From PVC group bacterium (lineage in GTDB: Bacteria > Auribacterota > Erginobacteria > Erginobacterales > Erginobacteraceae): DNA of 34,988 nucleotides. Below, in pieces: positions 5,443 through 23,070 of the stretch; the stretch's first letter is position 1; each line of letters starts with the position of its first letter. Position numbers and translations under genes: made by a program. The notes beneath the pieces are model-generated. The model did not search any database. It had not been told where the DNA came from and saw only the letters and a program-made list of their open reading frames with translations. The DNA lies in the NCBI GenBank assembly GCA_003561965.1, contig PWXJ01000161.1:1-34988 (forward strand), read 5' to 3'.

Positions 5443-5464
5443 GGGGCACGGCATGCCGTGCCCC
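5443..5464 (-). repeat. 22-bp perfect palindrome GGGGCACGGCATGCCGTGCCCC touching the codB stop codon
   Basis: Read directly; related copies at 17576-17597 and 19603-19622. Confidence 0.85.
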
Positions 5465-6789
5465 TACAGCTCGTGGCCGACAAGGTTTTCCGATCCCGGG
5501 AACAGCCGGTCGATCAGGGCGTGGCCGAGTCCGGCGGTTAGGATCCCGTTCAGGGGCGGGATCAGGAACCCGGTCCGTTCGCTGATCCAGGCGGCTAGGA
5601 CCCCGAGGACGCCGGCGATCAGGGCCCCCGGACGGTAGTTGACCCGCCGGATCTCCTCCAGCGGGGGGAGCCGTCGCCTCCGGACCAGGTAGTAGTCGCT
5701 TAAGATCACCCCGCCCAGCGGGGGGACGAGGATTCCCAGGGCGGCCATCCAGTTGGAGACGTAATTGTAGGCTCCGCTGATCGCGATCAGGAAACCGAAG
5801 ACCCCGCAGAAAAGGATGAAAGGGCGCTTCCGGTTGAAGTGGAAGAGGGCGGTCCCCGCCACCCCGAAGGCGTAGGCGGTGTTGTCGTTGGTGGTCCAGA
5901 CGTTGAGGACCATCAGGACCAGGCCCAGCCCGAGCAGACCCTGGATCTTGAGGACGGCGGCGAAGTCGGGCTGGCCGTAAACGTTCCCCCCCACCGCCCC
6001 GAACCAGAGCATCAGCCCGTTGCCGAGGAGGAAGGCCAGCAGCCCGGCCAGGAAGGCGATCCGCCGGGTCCGGGCGAACCGGGCCCAGTTGGGGGCCTGG
6101 GTCCCCCCGGAGGCGAAGGTCCCGACGATCAAAGTCATCGCGGCGGCGAAACTGAGCTCTCCGGAAGGGACGATCCTCGAGATTCCCCCGACCGTCTGGC
6201 GGGCGTGGGCGAAGGAGTTGACCGCCATCAGGGTCCCCAGGGCCAGGACACAGGGCACGGCGATCAGGGAGAGGGTCTCCATCCCCTTGTACCCGAAGTA
6301 GGCGGTGGAGATGAAGGCCGCCGACCAGACCAGGCACCAGAAGACCATTGTTCGCGTATCCGCCCAGTCCAGCCCCAGCCAGTCGACGAAAGGTTTGGCC
6401 ATCAGGGCCACCGTCACCCCGAACCAGCCCAGCTGCGTCCCCCCCAGGATCAGATCGCTCACCCGCGCCCCCTTGTTTCCGAAGGCGTAGCGGGCCAGCA
6501 AAACCGTGGTCAGTCCGCTATCGGCGCTGACCGCGCAGAGGCCGGCCACGTAGAGGCCGAGGATCAGCGACCCGGCCCCGATGATCAGGAAGAGGTCGGG
6601 CCAGTAACGGCAGGCGTGGCCGATCTCGGCCCCGGCGTACATCGTCGGGTAGAAGAAGGTGAAGCCGAGCAGGACCACCGAGATCGAGACCAGCCCGCGG
6701 CGGGCCGCGGCCGGCACCGGGGAGAGCGGGTAATCCGGATCCGGCCGGGAGATATCGCCGAAGATAAAATTCCGCAGCAGCCTTTTCAT
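5464..6789 (-). CDS. NCS1/cytosine permease family transporter (CodB-like)
   Basis: 441 aa polytopic; N-terminal VPAAARRGLVSISVVLLGFTFFYPTMYAGAEIG and DSGLTTVLLARYAFGNKGA motifs of CodB-like permeases. Confidence 0.85.
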   Translation of the reverse strand: MKRLLRNFIFGDISRPDPDYPLSPVPAAARRGLVSISVVLLGFTFFYPTMYAGAEIGHACRYWPDLFLIIGAGSLILGLYVAGLCAVSADSGLTTVLLARYAFGNKGARVSDLILGGTQLGWFGVTVALMAKPFVDWLGLDWADTRTMVFWCLVWSAAFISTAYFGYKGMETLSLIAVPCVLALGTLMAVNSFAHARQTVGGISRIVPSGELSFAAAMTLIVGTFASGGTQAPNWARFARTRRIAFLAGLLAFLLGNGLMLWFGAVGGNVYGQPDFAAVLKIQGLLGLGLVLMVLNVWTTNDNTAYAFGVAGTALFHFNRKRPFILFCGVFGFLIAISGAYNYVSNWMAALGILVPPLGGVILSDYYLVRRRRLPPLEEIRRVNYRPGALIAGVLGVLAAWISERTGFLIPPLNGILTAGLGHALIDRLFPGSENLVGHEL

Positions 6790-10234: not shown

Positions 10235-13200
10235 ATGGAGAACCGGGAACAGTACAGCGTGGGGATCTGCCTCGGGGCGTCGCGGGTGACGGCGGTCAGG
10301 ATCCTCTACCGCTCCGGCCGGGTGGAATCGATGGACAGTTACGGCCTCTACCACGGCGGCCGGGTGAAGAGCGCCCTGCGGGCCTTGCTGGAAGAGAACC
10401 GGCTCTCGGTTTACCCGACGGCCGTGACCGGCCGGAAGTTCAAGAACCTGGTCACCCTCTCCCGGATCTCCGAACCGGAAGCGGTGGAACTCGCCTACGG
10501 GGCGGTCAGGGACCGCTACCCCCCCGCCGGGGCCATCGTCAGCGCCGGCGGCGAGACCTTTATGGTTTACCGCCTCGACGATTCCGGCCGGATCAGCTCC
10601 GTCCATACCGGGGGAAAGTGCGCCTCCGGCACCGGGGAGTTCTTCCTCCAGCAGATCAAGCGGCTGGGGATCGGGATCGACCAGGTCCCCGACCTCCAGG
10701 ACCTCCGGGACCCCTACCCGTTGTCCGGCCGCTGCTCGGTCTTCTGCAAGAGCGACTGCACCCACGCCCTGAACAAGGGGGAAAGGAAGGACCGGGTCCT
10801 GGCCGGCCTCTCCCGGATGATGGCCGAGCGGATCATCGAGCTGCTGGGGAAGGCCGGGGCCGGGGAGATCATCCTCACCGGGGGGACCGCCCGGAACCGG
10901 AATATGGTCCGGTTTCTCCGGGAGAGCCTGGAGCGGGTGACGGTCCCCGAAGAGGCCGGGTATTTCGAGGCCCTGGGAGCGGCGATCTGGGCGGCGGAGA
11001 ATGAAAGTCCCCCCCCGGGGAAAACCCTCTTCCGGGAGAACTCCACCTCCTTCCAAACCCTGCCCCCGCTGGCCGCCGCCGCCGGCAAGGTCACCTACCA
11101 TACCCCGGAGTATCAGCCCGCCGCCGACGGGGACCGGTGTATCCTGGGGATAGACGTCGGTTCGACCACGACCAAGGCGGTCCTGGTCCGGGAGGCCGAC
11201 GCGGTCTGCCTGGCCGGGGTTTACCTGAGGACCGACGGGGACCCGGTCGGGGCGGCCAGAAAATGCTACCGCGGCCTGGCCGCCCGGATCAACGGCGCCG
11301 GGGTCAGGATAATCCAGCATAGCGTCACCGGTTCCGGTAGGCACATCGTCGCCCTCCAGGGGATGTCGGACTGCGTCGTCAACGAGATCATCGCCCACGC
11401 CGAGGCCGCCCTCTACTTCGACCCGGAAGTCGACACCATCTTCGAGATCGGCGGCCAGGACGCCAAGTACACCTCGATCACCGCCGGGATACCCTCCGAC
11501 TACGCGATGAACGAAGCCTGCGGCGCCGGGACCGGCTCCTTTCTCGAGGAGGCGGCGGCGGAGTCGCTGAACATCGGGACGGCCGAGATCGCCGACCGGG
11601 CGATGGGGGGCAGAAACCCGGTCAATTTCAACGACCAGTGCGCCGCCTTCATCTCCAGCGACATCAAGAACGCCATCCAGGAAGGGGTCTCCGCCGAGGA
11701 CATCTCCGCCGGCCTGGTCTACTCGGTCTGTATGAACTACTCCCACCGGGTCAAGGGCAGCCGCCCGGTCGGGAAGAAGATATTTATGCAGGGCGGGGTC
11801 TGCTACAACCGGGCCGTCCCGGCGGCGATGGCCTCGCTGACCGGCACCAGTATCGTCGTCCCCCCCGACCCCGGGCTGATGGGGGCGTTCGGGGTCGCCC
11901 TGGTCGCCGCCCGTCGGCTCCGGGAAGGGGTGCTGAGCGAGAAAACGGTCTCCCTGGACACCCTCTCCGGACGGGAGATCGCCTACCGCCGGCCCTTTAC
12001 CTGCCGGGGTGACGACCGGGACTGCGACCGGAAATGCTCGATCTCCGTGGTCGAGATCGAGGGGAAGCGGTATCCCTTCGGCGGGATCTGCAACCGCTAT
12101 GACAACCTGTTCGAGGATGACGGCGCCCCGGGGAGGGGAGAGGACCTGGTCTCGTTCCGGGAGAAACTTCTCCACCGGGCAGGCTTGGTCCGGGCCGGGG
12201 GAGAGCGGACCGGCCGGCCCCGGGTCGGGATCAACCGGTCCTTGAACAACCTCACCCTGCTGCCGCTCTTCTCCGGCTTCCTGGCCGAACTCGGGCTGGA
12301 GACGGTCCTGCCGGAGAGGATCGATCCGGAGGGGATCGCCCGGCAGTCGGCGCCTTTCTGCTACCCGGTGGAGATCAGCCACGGCTATATGGCCGACCTC
12401 CTCCGGCTGGAGCCGGATTATATCTTCCTGCCCCAGGTCAAGGGACTCCGGGTCCCGGGGGGGCTGGCCAAGGGTGTCGCCTGCGTCCTCTCCCAGGGCG
12501 AGCCCTACTACCTGAAGGCGGTCTTTCCCCGCCTCCGTTCCCCCCGGGTCATCTCCCCGGTGCTCGACTTCAGCCGGGGTTTTGCATCCGCCGAAAAAGA
12601 GTTTATGGCGGCCGGCCGCCAACTGGGTTTTTCTCCGCGGCGTTCCCGGCGGGCCTACGCCGCGGCGGTTGGGGTTCAGCTGGAGTTCCAGCGGGAGCTG
12701 AAGAGAACCGGCCGCCGGGTCCTCGAACAGCTGCGGCGGGATCCCGGCCGGCGGGCGATTGTCGTCTTCGGCCGGCCCTATAACGCCTTCGCCTCCTCGG
12801 CGAACAAGGGTATCCCCCGGAAGCTGGCCACCCGGGGGGAGACGGTGCTCACTATCGATATGCTGGACCTGGAAGACGTCGCCCCCCCCTCCACGATGTA
12901 CTGGGCCTCCGGCCAGGCGATTATGCAGGCCGCCGAGCTGGTCGCCCGCCACCCGCAACTCTTCGGCGTTTACGTCACCAATTTCAGCTGCGGCCCGGAC
13001 TCCTTTCTCACCGGGTACTTCCGGAGACGGATGGGGGAGAAGCCCTCGCTGATCCTGGAACTGGACAGCCACACCGCCGACGCCGGGCTGGATACCCGGA
13101 TCGACGCTTATCTCGACATCATCGGCGGGTACTCCCGGCTGGAGAAAAGCTCCCCCCGCCCCCCCCGGTCGGCCGGGCCCTTCCGACCCGCCCGGATCAC

Positions 13201-14545
13201 CCCCGGCCGCGGCGGCCTGATGGTGACCGATTCCTCGGGAGAGAGCGTCTCTCTCCGGGATGACCGGGTCCGGGTGCTGCTGCCCTCGATGGGCAGCCTG
13301 GTCTCCCGGGGCTTTGCCGCCGCCCTGGAGCATTGCGGGATTAAGGCCACCCCGGTCCCCGACCCCGGGGAAGAGGAACTGAGGAGGGCCAAGGCCTACT
13401 CGACCTGCAAGGAGTGCCTGCCCCTCCAGCTCACCCTGGGCAGCCTCCTCAAGTACCTCGACCGCCCCCGGGACCCGGAGGAGATCCTGGTCTATTTTAT
13501 GCCCCGGTCCGACGGCCCCTGCCGCTTCGGCCAGTACAGCGTGCTGATGAACAACCTCCTCGAGGACCTGCGGATCCCCGACGTCGCCCTGCTCTCCCCG
13601 ACCTCGACCGACAGTTACGCCGGGCTCGACCGGAGGTTTGCCCGGAAGGCCTGGTCGGGGCTGGTTACCGCCGACGGATTGGAATGCGTCCGCAGCTCCC
13701 TGCTGGCCCTGGCCGAAGACCCGGCCGGGGCGCTGGAGATCTTCGGAGAGGAATCCGAACAAATCTTCCGGGCGCTGGCCGGCCCCTCCGGGAGCGGATT
13801 CCGAAAAACCCTGGCCCGGTCGGCGGAGCGGTTTTCCCGGATACCCCTGAAGAAGCCCTATTCCCGGGCCGGGAAGGTTCTCCTCTCCGGCGAGATCTAT
13901 GTCCGCACCGACGCCTTCTCCCGGAGGGGCCTGGTCGAAAAACTTGCCGCCCGGGGGATCGTCACCCGGATCGCCCCGGTCTACGAGTGGCTCTACTACA
14001 CCGATTACTGCGTGCGCAACGACCTGGAATTCGACCGTTCCCCGTTCGCCGCCAAGCTGGCCAACCGGCTGGAAGGCGGCTGGCGGCGATGGGTGGAAGG
14101 CCGGATCCGGAAGATTCTGGCCGCTTCCGGGCTCTGCGAGAGCCGCCCGGTGGACGTCCGCCGCTATATCGAGGCGGCCCGGGGCTCGATCTCCCCCCAC
14201 GTCACCGGCGAGGCGATCCTGACCATCGGCTCGGCCTACACCGAGATCATCGACGAGGTCTCCGGGGGGATCTCCCTCGGTCCCTTCGGCTGTATGCCCG
14301 CCAGGCTGGCGGAGTCGGTGATCTCCAGCCGCCTCTCCGAGGAGAAACGGCGGCTGACCGGGGATGACGGGGTGGCCGCCCGGGTTCTGGAGGAATTTCC
14401 CGTCCTGCCGTTTCTCTCCCTGGAGACCGACGGCAACGCCTTTCCCCAGGTGACCGAGGCCCGGCTGGAGGCTTTCTCCCTCCAGGTGGAGAGGCTCACC
14501 GGCCGGCTGCATTCCCCCCTTGACCGGCCCGCCCCGATCAAGTAA
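10235..14545 (+). CDS. Giant acyl-CoA dehydratase activase-type protein (two BadF/BadG/BcrA/BcrD ATPase domains, DUF2229, 2-hydroxyacyl-CoA dehydratase-like region)
   Basis: 1436 aa; CASGTGEFF and CGAGTGSFLEEAAAE; LGIDVGSTTTKAVLV; EIGGQDAKYTSI; KRYPFGGICNRYDN; CYPVEISHGYMADLL. Confidence 0.92.
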   Translation: MENREQYSVGICLGASRVTAVRILYRSGRVESMDSYGLYHGGRVKSALRALLEENRLSVYPTAVTGRKFKNLVTLSRISEPEAVELAYGAVRDRYPPAGAIVSAGGETFMVYRLDDSGRISSVHTGGKCASGTGEFFLQQIKRLGIGIDQVPDLQDLRDPYPLSGRCSVFCKSDCTHALNKGERKDRVLAGLSRMMAERIIELLGKAGAGEIILTGGTARNRNMVRFLRESLERVTVPEEAGYFEALGAAIWAAENESPPPGKTLFRENSTSFQTLPPLAAAAGKVTYHTPEYQPAADGDRCILGIDVGSTTTKAVLVREADAVCLAGVYLRTDGDPVGAARKCYRGLAARINGAGVRIIQHSVTGSGRHIVALQGMSDCVVNEIIAHAEAALYFDPEVDTIFEIGGQDAKYTSITAGIPSDYAMNEACGAGTGSFLEEAAAESLNIGTAEIADRAMGGRNPVNFNDQCAAFISSDIKNAIQEGVSAEDISAGLVYSVCMNYSHRVKGSRPVGKKIFMQGGVCYNRAVPAAMASLTGTSIVVPPDPGLMGAFGVALVAARRLREGVLSEKTVSLDTLSGREIAYRRPFTCRGDDRDCDRKCSISVVEIEGKRYPFGGICNRYDNLFEDDGAPGRGEDLVSFREKLLHRAGLVRAGGERTGRPRVGINRSLNNLTLLPLFSGFLAELGLETVLPERIDPEGIARQSAPFCYPVEISHGYMADLLRLEPDYIFLPQVKGLRVPGGLAKGVACVLSQGEPYYLKAVFPRLRSPRVISPVLDFSRGFASAEKEFMAAGRQLGFSPRRSRRAYAAAVGVQLEFQRELKRTGRRVLEQLRRDPGRRAIVVFGRPYNAFASSANKGIPRKLATRGETVLTIDMLDLEDVAPPSTMYWASGQAIMQAAELVARHPQLFGVYVTNFSCGPDSFLTGYFRRRMGEKPSLILELDSHTADAGLDTRIDAYLDIIGGYSRLEKSSPRPPRSAGPFRPARITPGRGGLMVTDSSGESVSLRDDRVRVLLPSMGSLVSRGFAAALEHCGIKATPVPDPGEEELRRAKAYSTCKECLPLQLTLGSLLKYLDRPRDPEEILVYFMPRSDGPCRFGQYSVLMNNLLEDLRIPDVALLSPTSTDSYAGLDRRFARKAWSGLVTADGLECVRSSLLALAEDPAGALEIFGEESEQIFRALAGPSGSGFRKTLARSAERFSRIPLKKPYSRAGKVLLSGEIYVRTDAFSRRGLVEKLAARGIVTRIAPVYEWLYYTDYCVRNDLEFDRSPFAAKLANRLEGGWRRWVEGRIRKILAASGLCESRPVDVRRYIEAARGSISPHVTGEAILTIGSAYTEIIDEVSGGISLGPFGCMPARLAESVISSRLSEEKRRLTGDDGVAARVLEEFPVLPFLSLETDGNAFPQVTEARLEAFSLQVERLTGRLHSPLDRPAPIK

Positions 14546-16074: not shown

Positions 16075-16186
16075 CGGCCTCGCGCCGCGGATAAGATCCC
16101 TGCCGGCTTGACCGGCAGGTGAATCAATTCATTAAATCGAGGTAAAATCATAGACCCTATAGGCCCCCGCGGCCTCGCGCCGCGGG
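16075..16186. repeat. Cluster of GC-rich hairpin repeats before the amidohydrolase gene
   Basis: CGGCCTCGCGCCGCGG at 16075-16090 and 16170-16185; CCTGCCGG-CTTGA-CCGGCAGG at 16099-16119; CCCGCGGC-CTCGC-GCCGCGGG at 16166-16186. Confidence 0.8.
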
Positions 16187-16200
16187 TGAATAAGTTCAGA

Positions 16201-17538
16201 ATGATTATCAGGAACGGACAGGTCGTCCTCCCCGGACGGGAAGAACCGGAGGCGCTGGATATCCGGATCCGGGATGGAAAGATCGTCGAACTGGGACCGG
16301 GCCTCTCCGGGGACGAGGAGGTCGTCGAGGCCCGGGGGATGCTGGTCCTCCCCGGGGGGATCGACCCCCACGTCCACTTCGACGACCCCGGTTTCACCGA
16401 CCGGGAGGACTTCGCCGCCGGGAGCCGTTTCGCCGCTTCCGGGGGGATCACCACCGTGATCGATATGCCCTGCACCTCGATCCCCCCGGTGACCACGGTC
16501 GCCAACCTGGAAGAGAAGCTTAAGGCGGTGGAGAAGAAGGCGGTGATCGACTACGGGTTCTACGGCGGGGTCTGCTGCCAGTCGATGGGAGAAGGTTATC
16601 CGGACAACTTTCTCCGGCTGGCCGAGATCGTCTTCGGCTTCAAGGTCTACTACATCTCCGTGATGGAGCTCTTTTCGGCGATCAACACCTTCCAGTTCCG
16701 GCTGATCCTCCAGCGGGCGGCGGAACTGGGGGTGACGGTGCTGCTCCACGCCGAGGATTTCAGCTACGTCTCCGCCGCCACCGAGTACTATCTGGCCCGG
16801 GGCGACACCCCGGTTTACTATTATAACTCCCGCCCCGAAATGGCCGAGATCCTGGCCGTCCGTTCCGCCCTCGAGCTGGCCGAAGAGGCCGGGGCCGACC
16901 TCCACCTGGTCCATCTCTCCACCGGTAAGGCGGCCCGGCTGACCGCGGCCGCTTCCGCCACCTGCGAGACCTGCCCCCACCTGCTGGAGTTCAACCTCGA
17001 CGACTTCATCAGGCTGGGTTCCCCTCTCAAGACCCCCCCGCCGGTTAAACGGGCGGGGAACCGGGAGGAGCTCTGGGATCTGTTGGCCTCGGGTGGCATC
17101 GACTTCGTCGCCTCCGATCACGCCCCCTGCCCGGCGGAGGGGAAGAATACCGGCTCGGTCTGGACCGATTACGCCGGTATGCCCGGGACCGGGACCCTGC
17201 TGCCCTACGTCTTTTCCGAGGGCTATCTCCAGGGGCGTTTGAGCCTGAAGCGCCTGGTCGAAGTCACCTCGGAAAACGCCGCCCGCCGCTACGGCCTCTA
17301 CCCCGACAAGGGGGCGATCGAGACCGGGACCGACGGCGACCTGGTCCTGATCGACCCCGGCCAATCCTGGAAGGTGACCGGGGCCGACTTCCTCTCCAGG
17401 GGTCACATCACCCCCTTCGAGGGGCGCGAGTTCAAAGGCCGGGTGATGGAGACCATTGTCCGGGGCAGGACCGTCTACCGCGCCGGCGCCGGCATCCTGG
17501 CCGAAGGGGGATACGGACGTTTCCTGACCCGGGGATAA
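16201..17538 (+). CDS. Dihydroorotase/allantoinase-like cyclic amidohydrolase
   Basis: LVLPGGIDPHVHFDDPGFTDREDF, GFKVYY (carbamylated Lys candidate), LLHAED, LHLVHLSTGKA, FVASDHAPCP. A GTG at 16186 is an alternative start. Confidence 0.88.
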   Translation: MIIRNGQVVLPGREEPEALDIRIRDGKIVELGPGLSGDEEVVEARGMLVLPGGIDPHVHFDDPGFTDREDFAAGSRFAASGGITTVIDMPCTSIPPVTTVANLEEKLKAVEKKAVIDYGFYGGVCCQSMGEGYPDNFLRLAEIVFGFKVYYISVMELFSAINTFQFRLILQRAAELGVTVLLHAEDFSYVSAATEYYLARGDTPVYYYNSRPEMAEILAVRSALELAEEAGADLHLVHLSTGKAARLTAAASATCETCPHLLEFNLDDFIRLGSPLKTPPPVKRAGNREELWDLLASGGIDFVASDHAPCPAEGKNTGSVWTDYAGMPGTGTLLPYVFSEGYLQGRLSLKRLVEVTSENAARRYGLYPDKGAIETGTDGDLVLIDPGQSWKVTGADFLSRGHITPFEGREFKGRVMETIVRGRTVYRAGAGILAEGGYGRFLTRG

Positions 17539-17646: not shown

Positions 17647-17674
17647 TTGACGTCTATACTAACGTGTATATACT
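17647..17674 (+). promoter_or_regulatory. Sigma70-like promoter with embedded inverted repeat (possible VapBC operator)
   Basis: TTGACG (17647-17652)-N16-TATACT (17669-17674); TATAC-N6-GTATA at 17655-17670. Confidence 0.65.
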
Positions 17675-17682
17675 ATTCGGGT

Positions 17683-17913
17683 ATGAAAACAGCCAAACTA
17701 TTCAAGAACGGGCAGAGCCAGGCCGTCCGGCTCCCCAAGGAATTCCGGTTCTCCGGGAAGGCGGTTAATATCCAGCGCCTGGGGAACTGCGTGGTTCTGC
17801 TTCCCGAGGACGACCCCTGGAAGTCTATGTTTGAAGCCTCCCGGCACTTCACGGATGACTTTATGTCTGATCGCGATCAGGATACCGTCCCCGAGCGGGA
17901 GAGCCTGGATTGA
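17683..17913 (+). CDS. vapB: VapB-type antitoxin (AbrB/SpoVT-like)
   Basis: MKTAKLFKNGQSQAVRLPKEFRFSGKAVNIQRLGNCVVLLP; followed by an overlapping PIN toxin gene. Confidence 0.9.
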   Translation: MKTAKLFKNGQSQAVRLPKEFRFSGKAVNIQRLGNCVVLLPEDDPWKSMFEASRHFTDDFMSDRDQDTVPERESLD

Positions 17914-18338
17914 TGCGCTACCTCCTGGATACCAATATCTGTATCTATATCATCAAGCGCTCCCCTCCTGAACTGTATGCCCGTTTCCGGAAACTCCAGG
18001 TCGGGGATGTCGGAGTCTCGGCGATCACCTATTGCGAACTCCAGTTCGGGGTCTCCCGCAGTTCGCGGCCGGAAGAGAATCAACTGGCCCTGACCGAATT
18101 TCTCGGCCCGTTGGAGTTGCTGGATTTTCCCTCCGCCGCCGCCATCAGGTTCGGCGAGATCCGCGCCCGCCTCCAGGCGGCGGGAACTCCCATCGGCGGC
18201 TACGATCTCCTGATCGCCGCCCACGCCCTCCACGAAGGGCTGATCCTGGTCACCAACAACACCCGGGAATTTCTCCGGGTCCCCGATCTGAAGCTGGAAA
18301 ATTGGCTCACCCCGGCCGGTTCCGCCGGCCGGAAATGA
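17913..18338 (+). CDS. vapC: VapC-type PIN-domain ribonuclease toxin
   Basis: MRYLLDTNICIYIIK, ISAITYCELQFGV-like, GGYDLLIAAHAL, LVTNNTREFLRVPDLKLENW; TGATG overlap with vapB. Confidence 0.92.
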   Translation: MRYLLDTNICIYIIKRSPPELYARFRKLQVGDVGVSAITYCELQFGVSRSSRPEENQLALTEFLGPLELLDFPSAAAIRFGEIRARLQAAGTPIGGYDLLIAAHALHEGLILVTNNTREFLRVPDLKLENWLTPAGSAGRK

Positions 18339-18918: not shown

Positions 18919-19218
18919 TCAAGCCCCGAAGGACTCGGCGGGGGAGGGGTGGATGTTGACCGAGTCGATGTAACCGACGCAGACCGCCCGGACCACCCCG
19001 GTCGACCCGGTCTCCAGGACCTGGCGGGCGCTGTTACCTTCGTCGATCATCAGGACCACGTCGCCCTCGCCCGCCTGGCAGCGGTCGAAGGCCACCACGG
19101 TCTCGGGGGTATCGGAACCGTCGGGGTCGAGGATCCGGGCCAACAGCAGTTTTTCCCCGGCGTACTGGTCCAGCTTCAGGGTCGAGACGACGGTTCCGAT
19201 TATCCGGGCGATCTTCAT
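18919..19218 (-). CDS. BMC pentameric vertex protein (EutN/CcmL, BMC-P) 1
   Basis: MKIARIIGTVVSTLKLDQYAGEKLLLARILD...VVAFDRCQAGEGDVVLMIDEGNSARQV. Confidence 0.93.
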   Translation of the reverse strand: MKIARIIGTVVSTLKLDQYAGEKLLLARILDPDGSDTPETVVAFDRCQAGEGDVVLMIDEGNSARQVLETGSTGVVRAVCVGYIDSVNIHPSPAESFGA

Positions 19219-19241
19219 TAGGGATAATTTCCGTGTTGGGT

Positions 19242-19300
19242 TCCGGGCGGCGCGGCGTATGTTTTCGGCGCCTGATGTTTGTATCCGGGCGGCGCGGCGT
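19242..19300. repeat. 17-bp direct repeat TCCGGGCGGCGCGGCGT (two copies)
   Basis: Copies at 19242-19258 and 19284-19300, flanking the gap between BMC-P genes 1 and 2. Confidence 0.8.
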
Positions 19301-19578
19301 TATTTTTGCCGGGCGGCCAGGGAAACCTCGTCGACTATCGATGTTATGGTGGCGTCGGAGGGGTTGAAGGGTTCGGGCAGCGGCAGCGAGGCCTCCCGCC
19401 CGCCGATGAAGGTGACGATCTGCCCCGGCCCGGCCTGCTGGGTGTCGCAGGCCACCACCGGCTCGCCCCGGACCTTGAGGTCCTCGTCGAGGGGCTGGAC
19501 GATCAGCAGCTTGACCCCGTCGAAGGATTCCACCTTCCGGGTGCTGATCACGGTGCCGATTACCCTTCCCAGGTTCAA
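19300..19578 (-). CDS. BMC pentameric vertex protein (EutN/CcmL, BMC-P) 2, TTG start
   Basis: MNLGRVIGTVISTRKVESFDGVKLLIVQPLDED...VVACDTQQAGPGQIVTFIGGREASL; GGAG upstream of TTG. Confidence 0.92.
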   Translation of the reverse strand: MNLGRVIGTVISTRKVESFDGVKLLIVQPLDEDLKVRGEPVVACDTQQAGPGQIVTFIGGREASLPLPEPFNPSDATITSIVDEVSLAARQK

Positions 19579-19602
19579 AATAGTTCTCCGAAAAAATTGT
19601 TC

Positions 19603-19622
19603 GGGCGAGGCGTGCCTCGCCC
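19603..19622 (-). repeat. Palindrome GGGCGAGGCGTGCCTCGCCC between BMC-P genes 2 and 3
   Basis: Minus strand: GGGCGAGGCACGCCTCGCCC followed by GAACAATTTTTT. Confidence 0.75.
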
Positions 19623-19627
19623 CGGCA

Positions 19628-19918
19628 TTATATTTTCCGATATTTCTCCGCCCCGCCGACTTCCCACTGGTCGACGATGCCGCAGATTACGGCGTCGTTG
19701 GGGCGGTCGCGGGTGATCTCTGTCTGGCGGGCGGAACTTCCCTTGGAATAAATGACCACCTCTCCCCGGTCGGCCCCGACCGGGTCGGCGGCGATCACCG
19801 AGCCGCCGCTGGGGCGGTTTTCCAGGTCGAGGTCCTTCAGGACCAGGAAGCGGACCCCGACCATCTTCTCGTCTTTTCTCGAAGCCACCACCGTTCCCGC
19901 TACCTGCGCCAGCTGCAT
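19628..19918 (-). CDS. BMC pentameric vertex protein (EutN/CcmL, BMC-P) 3
   Basis: MQLAQVAGTVVASRKDEKMVGVRFLVLKDLDLEN...VIAADPVGADRGEVVIYSKGSSARQT. Confidence 0.92.
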   Translation of the reverse strand: MQLAQVAGTVVASRKDEKMVGVRFLVLKDLDLENRPSGGSVIAADPVGADRGEVVIYSKGSSARQTEITRDRPNDAVICGIVDQWEVGGAEKYRKI

Positions 19919-20002
19919 TATAATTTTTCCTCGGGAAATAATATTGTTAGGGAAATCATCTTGGGAGCTATTACTTATAGCAAAAATCCGCGGTTAGACC
20001 AG

Positions 20003-21418
20003 TTATTTTTTCCCCTCGTCAACAGGGAAGATCTTGCCGGGGTTGAGGATGTTGCCGGGGTCGAGGGACCGCTTGATCGACCGCATCGCCGCGATCGCCG
20101 CCGGATTCAGGGCCAGGGAGAGGTAATCCCGCTTGCTGAACCCGATCCCGTGTTCGCCGGAGATCGTTCCCCCCAGCCGGACGGCGAGTTGGAAAAGCTC
20201 GGGGACGGCCTTCCCGACCGCCTCCCGCCATCCGGCCTCCTCCCGGTCCCGCTTCAAAAAGTTGACGTGGACGTTGCCGTCGCCGGCGTGCCCGTAGGAG
20301 ATGATCTCCACCCCGCGGCTCTTGCCGATCTGTTCGATCCCGGCCAGGAGCGCGGCGATCTCCATCCGGGGGACGACCACGTCCTGGCTGACCTTGACCG
20401 GGCTGACGGTCTTGATCGAGTCCCGCAGCTTCCTCCGGGTCTCCCAGATCTGTTCCTGGTAGCGGGGGGAGTCGGCGACCCTGATATCCGCCGCCCCCCC
20501 CTCCAGGCAGATCTCCCCGATCGCCTCGTAGCGTTTCTCCACCCGGCCGGGTTCGTCCCCGTCGACCTCGATCAGGAGGTGGGCGGCGGCGTCGTCGAAG
20601 GGGACCGGGTTCTGGAGGACCCGCCGGCTGATCTCCAGGCATTGCCGGTCCATAAACTCGATCGCGGTCGGCGCCAGCCGGCGCTTCTGGATGGCGGCCA
20701 CGGCCTCCACCGCTTCCCGGTAGGAGGGGAAGGGGACCAGGAGGTCGACCCGGATCTCCGGTTTGACCAGGAGCCGGGCGGTGATCCGGGAGGCTATCCC
20801 CAGCGTCCCCTCCGACCCGATCAGGAGGTGGAGGAGGTTGTAGCCGGTGGCGTTCTTGACCGTCTTTCCGCCGTAGTCGATGATCTCCCCGCCGGGGAGG
20901 ATCGCTTCCACCCCGGTCAGGTAATCCCGGGTCACACCGTACTTGACCGCCCGGGGACCCCCGGCGTCCTCGGCCAGGTTGCCCCCCAGGGTGCAGCTGT
21001 CGAGACTGGCGGGGTCGGGGGGATAGAATAGTCCCCGCTCCTCCACCGCCCGGTGCAGGTTTTCGGTGATCACCCCGGCCTCGACCACCGCCATCATATT
21101 CTTCTCGTCGATCTCCACCACCCGGTTCATCCGCTCCAGGCCGATCACCAGTCCCCCGTGGACCGGGACCGCTCCCCCGGTGACCCCGGTCCCCCCCCCG
21201 CGGGCCAGGACCGGGAACCGGTACTCGTTGGCCAGTTTCAGCAGGGCGGAGATCTCCCCCGCCGTCCCCGGCCGGACGGCCGCCTCCGGCCGGGCGCTCA
21301 GCCCCGGGGTTTCGTCCCGTCCGTAGTCCTCCAGTTCCTCGGGGAGGGAGAGGAGGTTCTCCGTCCCCACCACGTCCTCGATTCTTTTCCGGAGATCGCT
21401 GTCGATTTTTTCGTACAT
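20003..21418 (-). CDS. FAD-binding oxidase, GlcD-like ((S)-2-hydroxyacid oxidase/D-lactate dehydrogenase family)
   Basis: PVLARGGGTGVTGGAVPVHGGLVIGLERMN; YGVTRDYLTGVEAILPGGEII; ISGEHGIGFSKRDYL. Start trimmed to MYEK. Confidence 0.92.
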   Translation of the reverse strand: MYEKIDSDLRKRIEDVVGTENLLSLPEELEDYGRDETPGLSARPEAAVRPGTAGEISALLKLANEYRFPVLARGGGTGVTGGAVPVHGGLVIGLERMNRVVEIDEKNMMAVVEAGVITENLHRAVEERGLFYPPDPASLDSCTLGGNLAEDAGGPRAVKYGVTRDYLTGVEAILPGGEIIDYGGKTVKNATGYNLLHLLIGSEGTLGIASRITARLLVKPEIRVDLLVPFPSYREAVEAVAAIQKRRLAPTAIEFMDRQCLEISRRVLQNPVPFDDAAAHLLIEVDGDEPGRVEKRYEAIGEICLEGGAADIRVADSPRYQEQIWETRRKLRDSIKTVSPVKVSQDVVVPRMEIAALLAGIEQIGKSRGVEIISYGHAGDGNVHVNFLKRDREEAGWREAVGKAVPELFQLAVRLGGTISGEHGIGFSKRDYLSLALNPAAIAAMRSIKRSLDPGNILNPGKIFPVDEGKK

Positions 21419-21448
21419 CGTTTTCCGCCCCCGGCCGAAGAAAAAATG

Positions 21449-21478
21449 TTGACCCGCCGGGTTGACCTGATCCATAAT
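21449..21478 (+). promoter_or_regulatory. Candidate sigma70-like promoter for the rpiB-like/deoC genes in the divergent intergenic region
   Basis: TTGACC (21449-21454)-N18-CATAAT (21473-21478). Confidence 0.4.
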
Positions 21479-21529
21479 AACACGGTTGTTTTACCCGGGA
21501 AAACTTCTTAATTCAAACAGCAGGTATAG

Positions 21530-22096
21530 ATGGACCGGAACCGGATCGAACGCATCGTCGAGGAAGTGATCAGCCAGACTGGCAGGATCTCCCCCGCCCC
21601 CGCCAACCAGGCCCCGATGAGCAACGTTACGGAAAACAAGGGGACGGTGAAGAAGATCGCCATCGGGGCCGATCACGGCGGCTTCCCCCTCAAGGAGTCG
21701 CTGGTCAAGTTTCTGGAGAGCAAGGGGTACCGGGTCGCCGACCAGGGCACCGACTCGAGCGCGGCCGTCGATTACCCCGACTTCGCCGTGAAGGTGGCCC
21801 GGGCGGTCGCCTCCGGTGATTGCGACCGGGGGATTATGATCGATTCGCTGGGGATGGCCTCGGCGATGGCCGCCAACAAGGTCCGGGGGATCCGGGCGGC
21901 GATGTGCTACGACCTGACCACCGCCCGCTCCTCCCGCGAGCATAACGACGCCAATGTCCTGACCCTGGGCGGAAAGATCCTCGAGTTTGCCCTGGCCGCC
22001 GAGATCGTCGATCTCTGGCTGACCACCGCCTTCGCCGGCGGTCGCCACTGGCCCCGGGTCAACAAGGTAATGGCCATCGAGCGCCGGAGACAATAA
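21530..22096 (+). CDS. RpiB/LacAB-family sugar-phosphate isomerase homologue with N-terminal amphipathic extension; BMC-associated
   Basis: [56 protein letters not shown]-terminus [19 protein letters not shown] plus Pro/Ala linker. Active-site loop is IDSLGMA instead of ICGTGIG. Confidence 0.9.
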
Positions 22097-22164
22097 TCGG
22101 TCCGCTTCCGGTTTCGTGTTTACAATCAATTGAACACCAGGATTATTTGGAGAAGAATTTACTG

Positions 22165-23070
22165 ATGGATACCCAGTTACTGGTTGATCGGGTCACCCGG
22201 GAGGTGATGACCGCCCTCCGGGGGACCACCCGGACTGCCCCGGCCGCGTCATCCGCCGCCTGCGCCCTGGAAAACGGGCTCAGCTGTGAGGAATGCGGGC
22301 AATGCGTGACCAACCGGCCCGACTTCATCGAAGGCCTGATCTCCGGCGGGGTCTGCCGGCTGAGCACCCAGTTGGGGATCGGGCCGGTGGAGGCCCGGAT
22401 CGCCCGGATGATCGATCACACCCTGCTCAAGCCGGACGCCACCGAGGAGCAGATTACCCAGCTCTGCCGGGAGGCGGCCACCTACTGCTTCGCCTCGGTC
22501 TGCGTCAACCCGATCTGGGTCGACCTCTGCGCCAGGCTGCTCCGAAGGTCCGGGGTCAAGGTCTGCACGGTGATCGGCTTCCCCCTCGGGGCCACCACCA
22601 CCGGGGCCAAGGCCTACGAGACCCGGGATACGATCGGAAAGGGGGCGGGCGAGGTCGATATGGTGATCAACGTCGGGCTGATCAAGTCCCGGCAGTACTC
22701 CCGGGTCCGGGAGGACATCCGGGCGGTGGTCCGGGCCACCCGGCCCAACATCCTGGTCAAGGTGATCCTCGAGACCTGCCTGCTGACCGACGAGGAAAAG
22801 GTCAGGGCCTGCCAGCTCTCGGTGGAGGCGGGGGCCGATTTCGTCAAGACCTCGACCGGTTTCTCCACCGGCGGGGCGACCGTCGAGGATATCGCCCTGA
22901 TGCGCCGGACCGTGGGGCCGGAGATCGGGGTCAAGGCCTCCGGCGGGGTGAGAAACTTCGAGGATGCCGAGGCGATGGTCAAGGCCGGGGCGACCCGGCT
23001 CGGGGCCAGCGCCGGGTTGAAGATTATCAAGGCCCAGGACGCCGCCGGTTCCGGCGGAACCAATTACTGA
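22165..23070 (+). CDS. deoC: Deoxyribose-phosphate aldolase with N-terminal extension (BMC-associated)
   Basis: [63 protein letters not shown] (Schiff-base Lys), GVKASGGVR; about 80-aa N-terminal extension. Confidence 0.93.

Follow-up and report, generated by a model that had tools for sequence, protein, structure and literature searches.

Where is the rest of the shell for a bacterial microcompartment (BMC) locus that carries three pentamer (BMC-P) genes and no hexamer gene? The question is raised by a cluster of six genes in a 34,988-nucleotide stretch of DNA, hereafter the window, which is an entire contig (C269) of a 2.32 Mb metagenome-assembled genome (MAG; 319 contigs, approximately 76% complete) from the phylum Candidatus Auribacterota, class Erginobacteria. 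The closest named record is Candidatus Euphemobacter frigidus (G003; records L042, L081), a 94% complete MAG; G000 denotes the window's own genome and G001 one of the same genus. We find that the cluster is very likely the satellite half of one BMC of the sugar phosphate utilizing (SPU) type, split over two genomic sites.

The satellite locus consists of three EutN/CcmL pentamer genes (P1–P3) and a gene for a GlcD-like flavoenzyme, diverging from genes for an RpiB-like sugar-phosphate isomerase and the aldolase DeoC (Table 1). This composition, read from the letters in an original prediction, is confirmed by Pfam, with scores for all six genes that far exceed chance. The divergent intergenic region contains four sigma-70-like sites where 0.5 are expected, and a similar TTGAC...AATAAT is present at the G003 locus. 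The most likely start of GlcD is the ATG at 21418 (MYEK...), common to relatives; the start of the longest open reading frame, at 21475, is less so. BMC-H and BMC-T shell genes (PF00936) and a PduP/EutE-type aldehyde dehydrogenase (AldDH) do not occur in the window, as the prediction had stated; it expected the shell to be encoded elsewhere and proposed a genome search with PF00936 and PF03319.

That whole-genome search locates the other half at C185:21547-27615 (= L009:7548-13616). The genes there run in the order CcmP-like BMC-T (291 bits, under the CcmP cut-off of 340), BMC-H, BMC-P (P4), acylating AldDH, PduS-like protein, PduT-like BMC-T, class II aldolase and HTH_17. All PF00936 matches of the genome sit on this contig, together with its fourth BMC-P and its only PduP/EutE-type AldDH (PRK15398, 647 bits, cut-off 403). 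The class II aldolase was not foreseen; the core idea of a split locus is right, and both the second half found on C185 and conservation support it. The small HTH_17 (excisionase-like) protein (L009:13335-13616), which closes the main locus and is kept there in G002, G019, G026 and G031, is a candidate regulator.

The two contigs very probably belong to the same organism, since their tetranucleotide profiles correlate at 0.98 (loci of relatives, 0.62–0.94) and G001 holds both halves at 78–98% identity. Judged from the contig ends, the two loci lie at least 28 kb apart. A single BMC-P and a triplet stand on different contigs also in G001, G002, G004, G011, G019, G026, G031 and G033; an assembly artefact as the cause of the split is ruled out by this recurrence in several MAGs, with contigs of 133–249 kb in G026.

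A search of 59 genomes finds EutN_CcmL genes in 14, counting that of the window. G000, G003 and G002 all keep the cassette P1-P2-P3-GlcD / RpiB-DeoC-SppA, the last of them with an extra open reading frame between GlcD and P3, and G001 agrees with it, given assembly breaks. In G004, from another family of the same order, RpiB-DeoC lies on a different contig from the triplet. Five genomes of other families (G011, G019, G026, G031 and G033) carry the main shell locus, the BMC-P triplet and an N-terminally extended RpiB-DeoC pair on three contigs; fragmentation of the BMC locus is thus old within Auribacterota, and the window joins two of the pieces. Outside the phylum, the closed, one-contig genome G055 has BMC-H, BMC-T, three BMC-P, AldDH, DeoC and RpiB-like genes dispersed over 3.3 Mb, so dispersal is not solely an effect of assembly. 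In G011 (L046:8691-8981) and G026 (L050:8736-9026), a further BMC-H, 87–89% identical to the main BMC-H of the window's genome, precedes the triplet, the satellite there holding a facet gene in addition to that of the main locus.

SPU, known from over 280 loci across 26 phyla (PMC8217296), is among the most widespread BMC types. It is defined by PF01791 and PF02502 together with AldDH (PMC4207490, PMC8217296). The window holds the DeoC (PF01791) and the RpiB-type protein (PF02502), and C185 supplies the core AldDH and the shell genes, BMC-H and BMC-P. For comparison, a DeoC profile was searched in 384 genomes, the strongest loci were examined and 20 DeoC loci from other lineages were compared. 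Single-locus SPU operons among these (L178, L181 and L184) run in the order BMC-P, AldDH, PduS, PduT, RpiB-like protein, one or two more BMC-P and DeoC; wherever the sequence extends far enough, BMC-H lies at one end. In a BMC-P tree, made from short proteins and with several long branches, P1 groups with one BMC-P of each canonical SPU locus (support 97/90), and P2 falls in a second triplet clade that also holds members of other SPU loci (100/96). Both clades include BMC-P genes located between RpiB and DeoC in the single-locus operons; P3 is in the same broad group as P4, in a separate clade. By operon order and by the P1 and P2 clades, the window holds the 3′ module (RpiB/BMC-P/BMC-P/DeoC) of an SPU-type locus, together with P3 as an extra pentamer and GlcD; C185 has the 5′ module, to which the class II aldolase, the CcmP-like BMC-T and HTH_17 are added. 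The SPU-like assignment made originally is upheld. Neither GlcD nor a class II aldolase was found at the 20 DeoC loci of other lineages.

SPU-type BMCs are known as a class, and the split arrangement with its extras is a variant. It shares with described SPU BMCs (Axen 2014, Sutter 2021; PMC4207490, PMC8217296) the combination of DeoC, RpiB-like protein, AldDH and PduS, several BMC-P and a CcmP-like BMC-T, the last known from some SPU subtypes; it differs in its two sites, added class II aldolase, four BMC-P, adjacent GlcD and the lack of any PduL found. The SPU-like BMC of Latescibacteria (PMC4207490) also has AldDH, PduS, an RpiB-like protein and a class II aldolase, but comes with PduL and acetate kinase and without DeoC, which is present here. 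HO and FRAG BMCs (PMC8217296) likewise have a BMC-P triplet and satellite loci, and some HO genomes carry an N-extended DeoC at a separate site, whereas here the triplet has RpiB-DeoC beside it, and PduS and the class II aldolase belong to the main locus. Lying on a separate contig from the main locus, here and in relatives, the window locus is a BMC satellite locus in the sense of PMC8217296 (shell genes, whether or not enzymes accompany them, at a distance from the main locus). Under the strict scheme of Axen 2014 (PF03319/PF00936 alone, no other BMC-related genes) it is ‘satellite-like’, since it carries BMC enzymes.

The RpiB-like protein belongs to the predicted family (PF02502) and passes the NCBIfam rpiB equivalog (164 bits, cut-off 139), so that standard annotation conceals a change in its active site. 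Where the solved RpiB structures 3ph3 and 1nn4 read ICGTGxGxS (ICGTGxGxSIAANK), the window protein reads MIDSLGMAS, with Asp105 in place of the Cys. This Cys is the general base of RpiB; the substitutions C69S (L. donovani) and C69A (T. cruzi) each eliminate its activity, and M. tuberculosis RpiB uses Glu75 instead (PMC4783025). Across 42 RpiB homologues, a sample picked via DeoC similarity and biased in its Asp and Cys frequencies, the residue is Asp in 25, Cys in 16 and Gly in one, and it divides by context. All Asp-type copies except one in G055 (24 of 25) lie within approximately 2 kb of an N-extended DeoC. The Cys-type copies are housekeeping-type and away from such a DeoC in 14 of 16 cases; the remaining two, in L183 and L193, are additional copies in tandem with one of Asp type. 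Every DeoC-paired RpiB locus examined has an Asp-type copy, and on the tree Asp requires two changes and Cys one, compared with approximately 13 when the labels are shuffled.

As in canonical RpiB (3ph3, 1nn4), the substrate-site Asp/His, His and Arg residues are conserved: Asp48/His49, Asp81-Tyr82-Pro83, His138 and Arg172/Arg176 are invariant in the Auribacterota set. The DeoC-paired copies differ in the Asp for Cys, in the Thr two positions on (Leu, Ala, Val or Thr) and in an N-terminal extension, which the DeoC-paired Auribacterota paralogues carry and most housekeeping RpiB lack. Asp105 may be a carboxylate base or the mark of a different substrate. The family assignment stands, but Asp at the catalytic position, here and in the DeoC-paired homologues examined, advises against taking the protein for a ribose-5-phosphate isomerase. 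The published SPU pathway, as distinct from the Pfam-based definition, assumes the Cys; DeoC-paired homologues in other SPU loci, from many bacterial groups, share the Asp, which therefore does not exclude SPU membership. We found no mention of Asp-type RpiB in BMCs in the accessible literature (subscription papers and supplements lay outside this coverage), and both this change and the four-Cys motif of DeoC apparently have not been described before. At the SPU loci L183:7005-8382 and L193:5725-6608, an Asp-type (DGTGGG) and a Cys-type (CGSGNG) RpiB-like gene stand in tandem, which recalls LacA/LacB hetero-oligomers.

DeoC matches the NCBIfam TIGR00126 equivalog at 299 bits (cut-off 117), and its best solved relatives are DERA structures, for example 6d33. 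Between a putative targeting helix and the aldolase domain, all ten Auribacterota DeoC compared share C39, C47, C50 and C53, and a comparable four-Cys motif appears in roughly half of the 20 DeoC of other lineages. We hypothesize that this linker is a metal site. An AlphaFold2 model (10-row alignment, metals not modelled) places a helix at residues 9–25 with modest confidence and gives the Cys linker low confidence, with block means of 31–48. The targeting peptides of both DeoC and the RpiB-like protein are putative, and are suggested by conserved extensions rather than by strong statistics.

Table 1 Features of the satellite locus, in window coordinates
Feature	Position	Strand	Evidence
BMC-P pentamer P1, 99 aa, last gene of triplet	18919..19218	-	PF03319 EutN_CcmL E=4.9e-20
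BMC-P pentamer P2, 92 aa	19300..19578	-	PF03319 E=1.1e-23
BMC-P pentamer P3, 96 aa, first gene of triplet	19628..19918	-	PF03319 E=2.5e-27
GlcD-like FAD-linked 2-hydroxyacid dehydrogenase, 471 aa	20003..21418	-	PF02913 1.1e-64, PF01565 2.5e-42
Candidate sigma-70-like promoter for rpiB-deoC, TTGACC-N18-CATAAT	21449..21478	+	10/12 consensus match only
RpiB-like sugar-phosphate isomerase, ~38-aa N-terminal extension (putative encapsulation peptide)	21530..22096	+	PF02502 2e-52
Asp105 codon of RpiB-like protein, at catalytic-Cys position of RpiB	21842..21844	+	alignment to PDB 3ph3, 1nn4
DeoC 2-deoxyribose-5-phosphate aldolase, ~80-aa N-terminal extension	22147..23070 (likely start ATG 22165)	+	TIGR00126 1.5e-89
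Putative DeoC encapsulation peptide	22165..22221	+	kept across ten Auribacterota DeoC
Four-Cys motif C39-x7-C47-x2-C50-G-x-C53 in DeoC linker, candidate metal site	22261..22305	+	

Elsewhere in the window, a cytosine permease (5464-6789, minus strand; NF008241, 386 bits, cut-off 326) and an allantoinase/dihydroorotase-like cyclic amidohydrolase (16186-17538, plus strand), which adjoins the triplet in G001 and G002 too, are circumstantially in keeping with nucleic-acid scavenging. A MazE/AbrB-type antitoxin and PIN-domain toxin pair (17647-18338, plus strand) lies immediately upstream of DUF4416 and the triplet, and a 1436-residue BcrAD_BadFG/DUF2229 protein (10235-14545, plus strand) is a large ATPase resembling 2-hydroxyacyl-CoA dehydratase activases.

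Encapsulation, metabolic direction, substrates and the role of GlcD we infer as follows. C185 would provide the facets (BMC-H with the CcmP-like and PduT-like BMC-T), pentamer P4, the acylating AldDH, PduS and the class II aldolase. From the window would come three more pentamers, which would occupy vertices, and two enzymes for the lumen: the RpiB-like isomerase and DeoC, each bearing a targeting-like extension at its N terminus. A pentose phosphate would be processed by the RpiB-like enzyme, in which Asp for Cys would serve as a different general base and perhaps reflect a different substrate, and the class II aldolase would be a second aldehyde-producing entry. GlcD would most likely be a co-localised cytosolic enzyme oxidising a downstream 2-hydroxyacid of the D-lactate or glycolate type.

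The GlcD-like flavoenzyme scores 409 bits with TIGR00387, below the cut-off of 568, and its closest solved relative is LctD (7qh2_C). No GlcF-type CCG-domain Fe-S partner (PF02754) was found in G000, in agreement with the prediction of a GlcD lacking an adjacent GlcF, or in G001, G003 and G004; G011 and G026, from another family, have a separate GlcD-GlcF pair. A GlcDEF glycolate oxidase is ruled out, the GlcF partner being neither found nor adjacent, and an LctBCD lactate dehydrogenase likewise, with no EtfA/EtfB adjacent and EtfAB only at C244. Likeness to the electron-bifurcating LctBCD (7qh2) consists in LctD itself and an EtfAB with a ferredoxin-type domain elsewhere in the genome; unlike there, EtfAB is not adjacent here, and it occurs in the phylum regardless of GlcD, encoded elsewhere in each of nine genomes checked. 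That GlcD is cargo, as originally suggested, in the form of a 2-hydroxyacid oxidase encapsulated in the lumen, seems quite improbable. Every one of the five genomes of the order has it next to the triplet, and its persistence there in G004, where RpiB-DeoC lies elsewhere, argues for some functional link; the four BMC-linked GlcDs also form one clade (100/100). However, it has no N- or C-terminal extension relative to LctD, is convergent rather than co-directional with the triplet in G004, and is missing both from the DeoC loci of other lineages and from beside other Auribacterota BMC loci. Of 44 GlcD loci in a scan of genome contigs, only three, all in Erginobacteria, have BMC-P genes beside GlcD; the neighbourhood holds in relatives throughout this order, and no BMC linkage of GlcD was found outside it. 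With no targeting extension and no GlcF-type partner found, GlcD is probably an accessory enzyme rather than a demonstrated cargo.

Several points weigh against a single SPU-type compartment split over two sites. The amphipathicity of the encapsulation peptides is weak in statistical terms: by hydrophobic moment, a test of too little power to stand on its own, that of DeoC is exceeded by 2.5% of shuffles, and those of the window RpiB and of AldDH are unremarkable. PduL (PF06130) was not found in 18 genomes searched, with control genomes positive, which leaves coenzyme A (CoA) recycling unexplained; it is present in most, not all, SPU loci, and Marinimicrobia SPU do without it (PMC4207490). The fragmented, incomplete MAG fixes the distance between the halves only as a lower bound. 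Finally, G003 has the satellite, yet a genome search finds no PF00936 match and no AldDH there, through a gap or a loss. This last point, together with G029, in which no AldDH and only a single BMC-T were found, would suit a satellite that is the remnant of a decaying BMC. We regard decay as highly improbable, given reading frames that are all intact, 60–80% identity across genera and invariant active-site residues in DeoC; the main half is present in G000, G002 and G004, and one missing contig would account for G003.

One shell might also run two interchangeable programmes, C185 alone being a complete class II aldolase BMC with P4 vertices, into which the separately regulated window locus swaps other pentamers and RpiB/DeoC cargo on deoxyribose-type substrates. 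With BMC-H, BMC-T, BMC-P, AldDH and its own class II aldolase, C185 qualifies as a main locus on its own; the satellite has its own divergent promoter region, each genome has four BMC-P genes, and main and satellite loci remain separate across the phylum. Canonical SPU loci, however, hold both halves together without a class II aldolase, which makes constant co-function the simpler default and exchange somewhat unlikely. Alternatively, the pathway could run in reverse as an aldehyde and electron sink, with AldDH reducing acetyl-CoA to acetaldehyde and DeoC condensing this with glyceraldehyde-3-phosphate into deoxyribose-5-phosphate as carbon storage. DeoC and EutE-type AldDH are reversible, and this direction is favoured by that reversibility and by the missing PduL. 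Such carbon storage was put forward for Atribacteria by Nobu et al. 2016 (cited in PMC6281690). The nearby nucleobase-related genes point more to scavenging, and the class II aldolase to a second catabolic input; the evidence is weak either way, and we consider the reverse direction improbable.

Under the preferred reading, a split SPU-type compartment, specialists are likeliest to be surprised by the Asp that replaces Cys in the SPU isomerase, a change outside the original finding. The proposal for SPU function rests on reading its enzymes as DeoC and ribose-5-phosphate isomerase; with DeoC-paired RpiB consistently lacking the catalytic Cys, the substrate of SPU compartments is testable with one purified enzyme. 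We tentatively put forward, as conceivable though short of probable, that the SPU ‘RpiB’ forms an Asp-type isomerase subfamily of its own, either not a ribose-5-phosphate isomerase or one using another base, that DeoC carries a metal-binding Cys linker, and that one Erginobacteria shell takes two aldolase modules encoded at different sites, joined by a solo flavoenzyme. The two-module fission, with its natural set of four pentamers and two aldolases, offers a way to ask if cargo and vertices are exchangeable, and if the Asp-type subfamily is real, the accepted SPU pathway would need rewriting.

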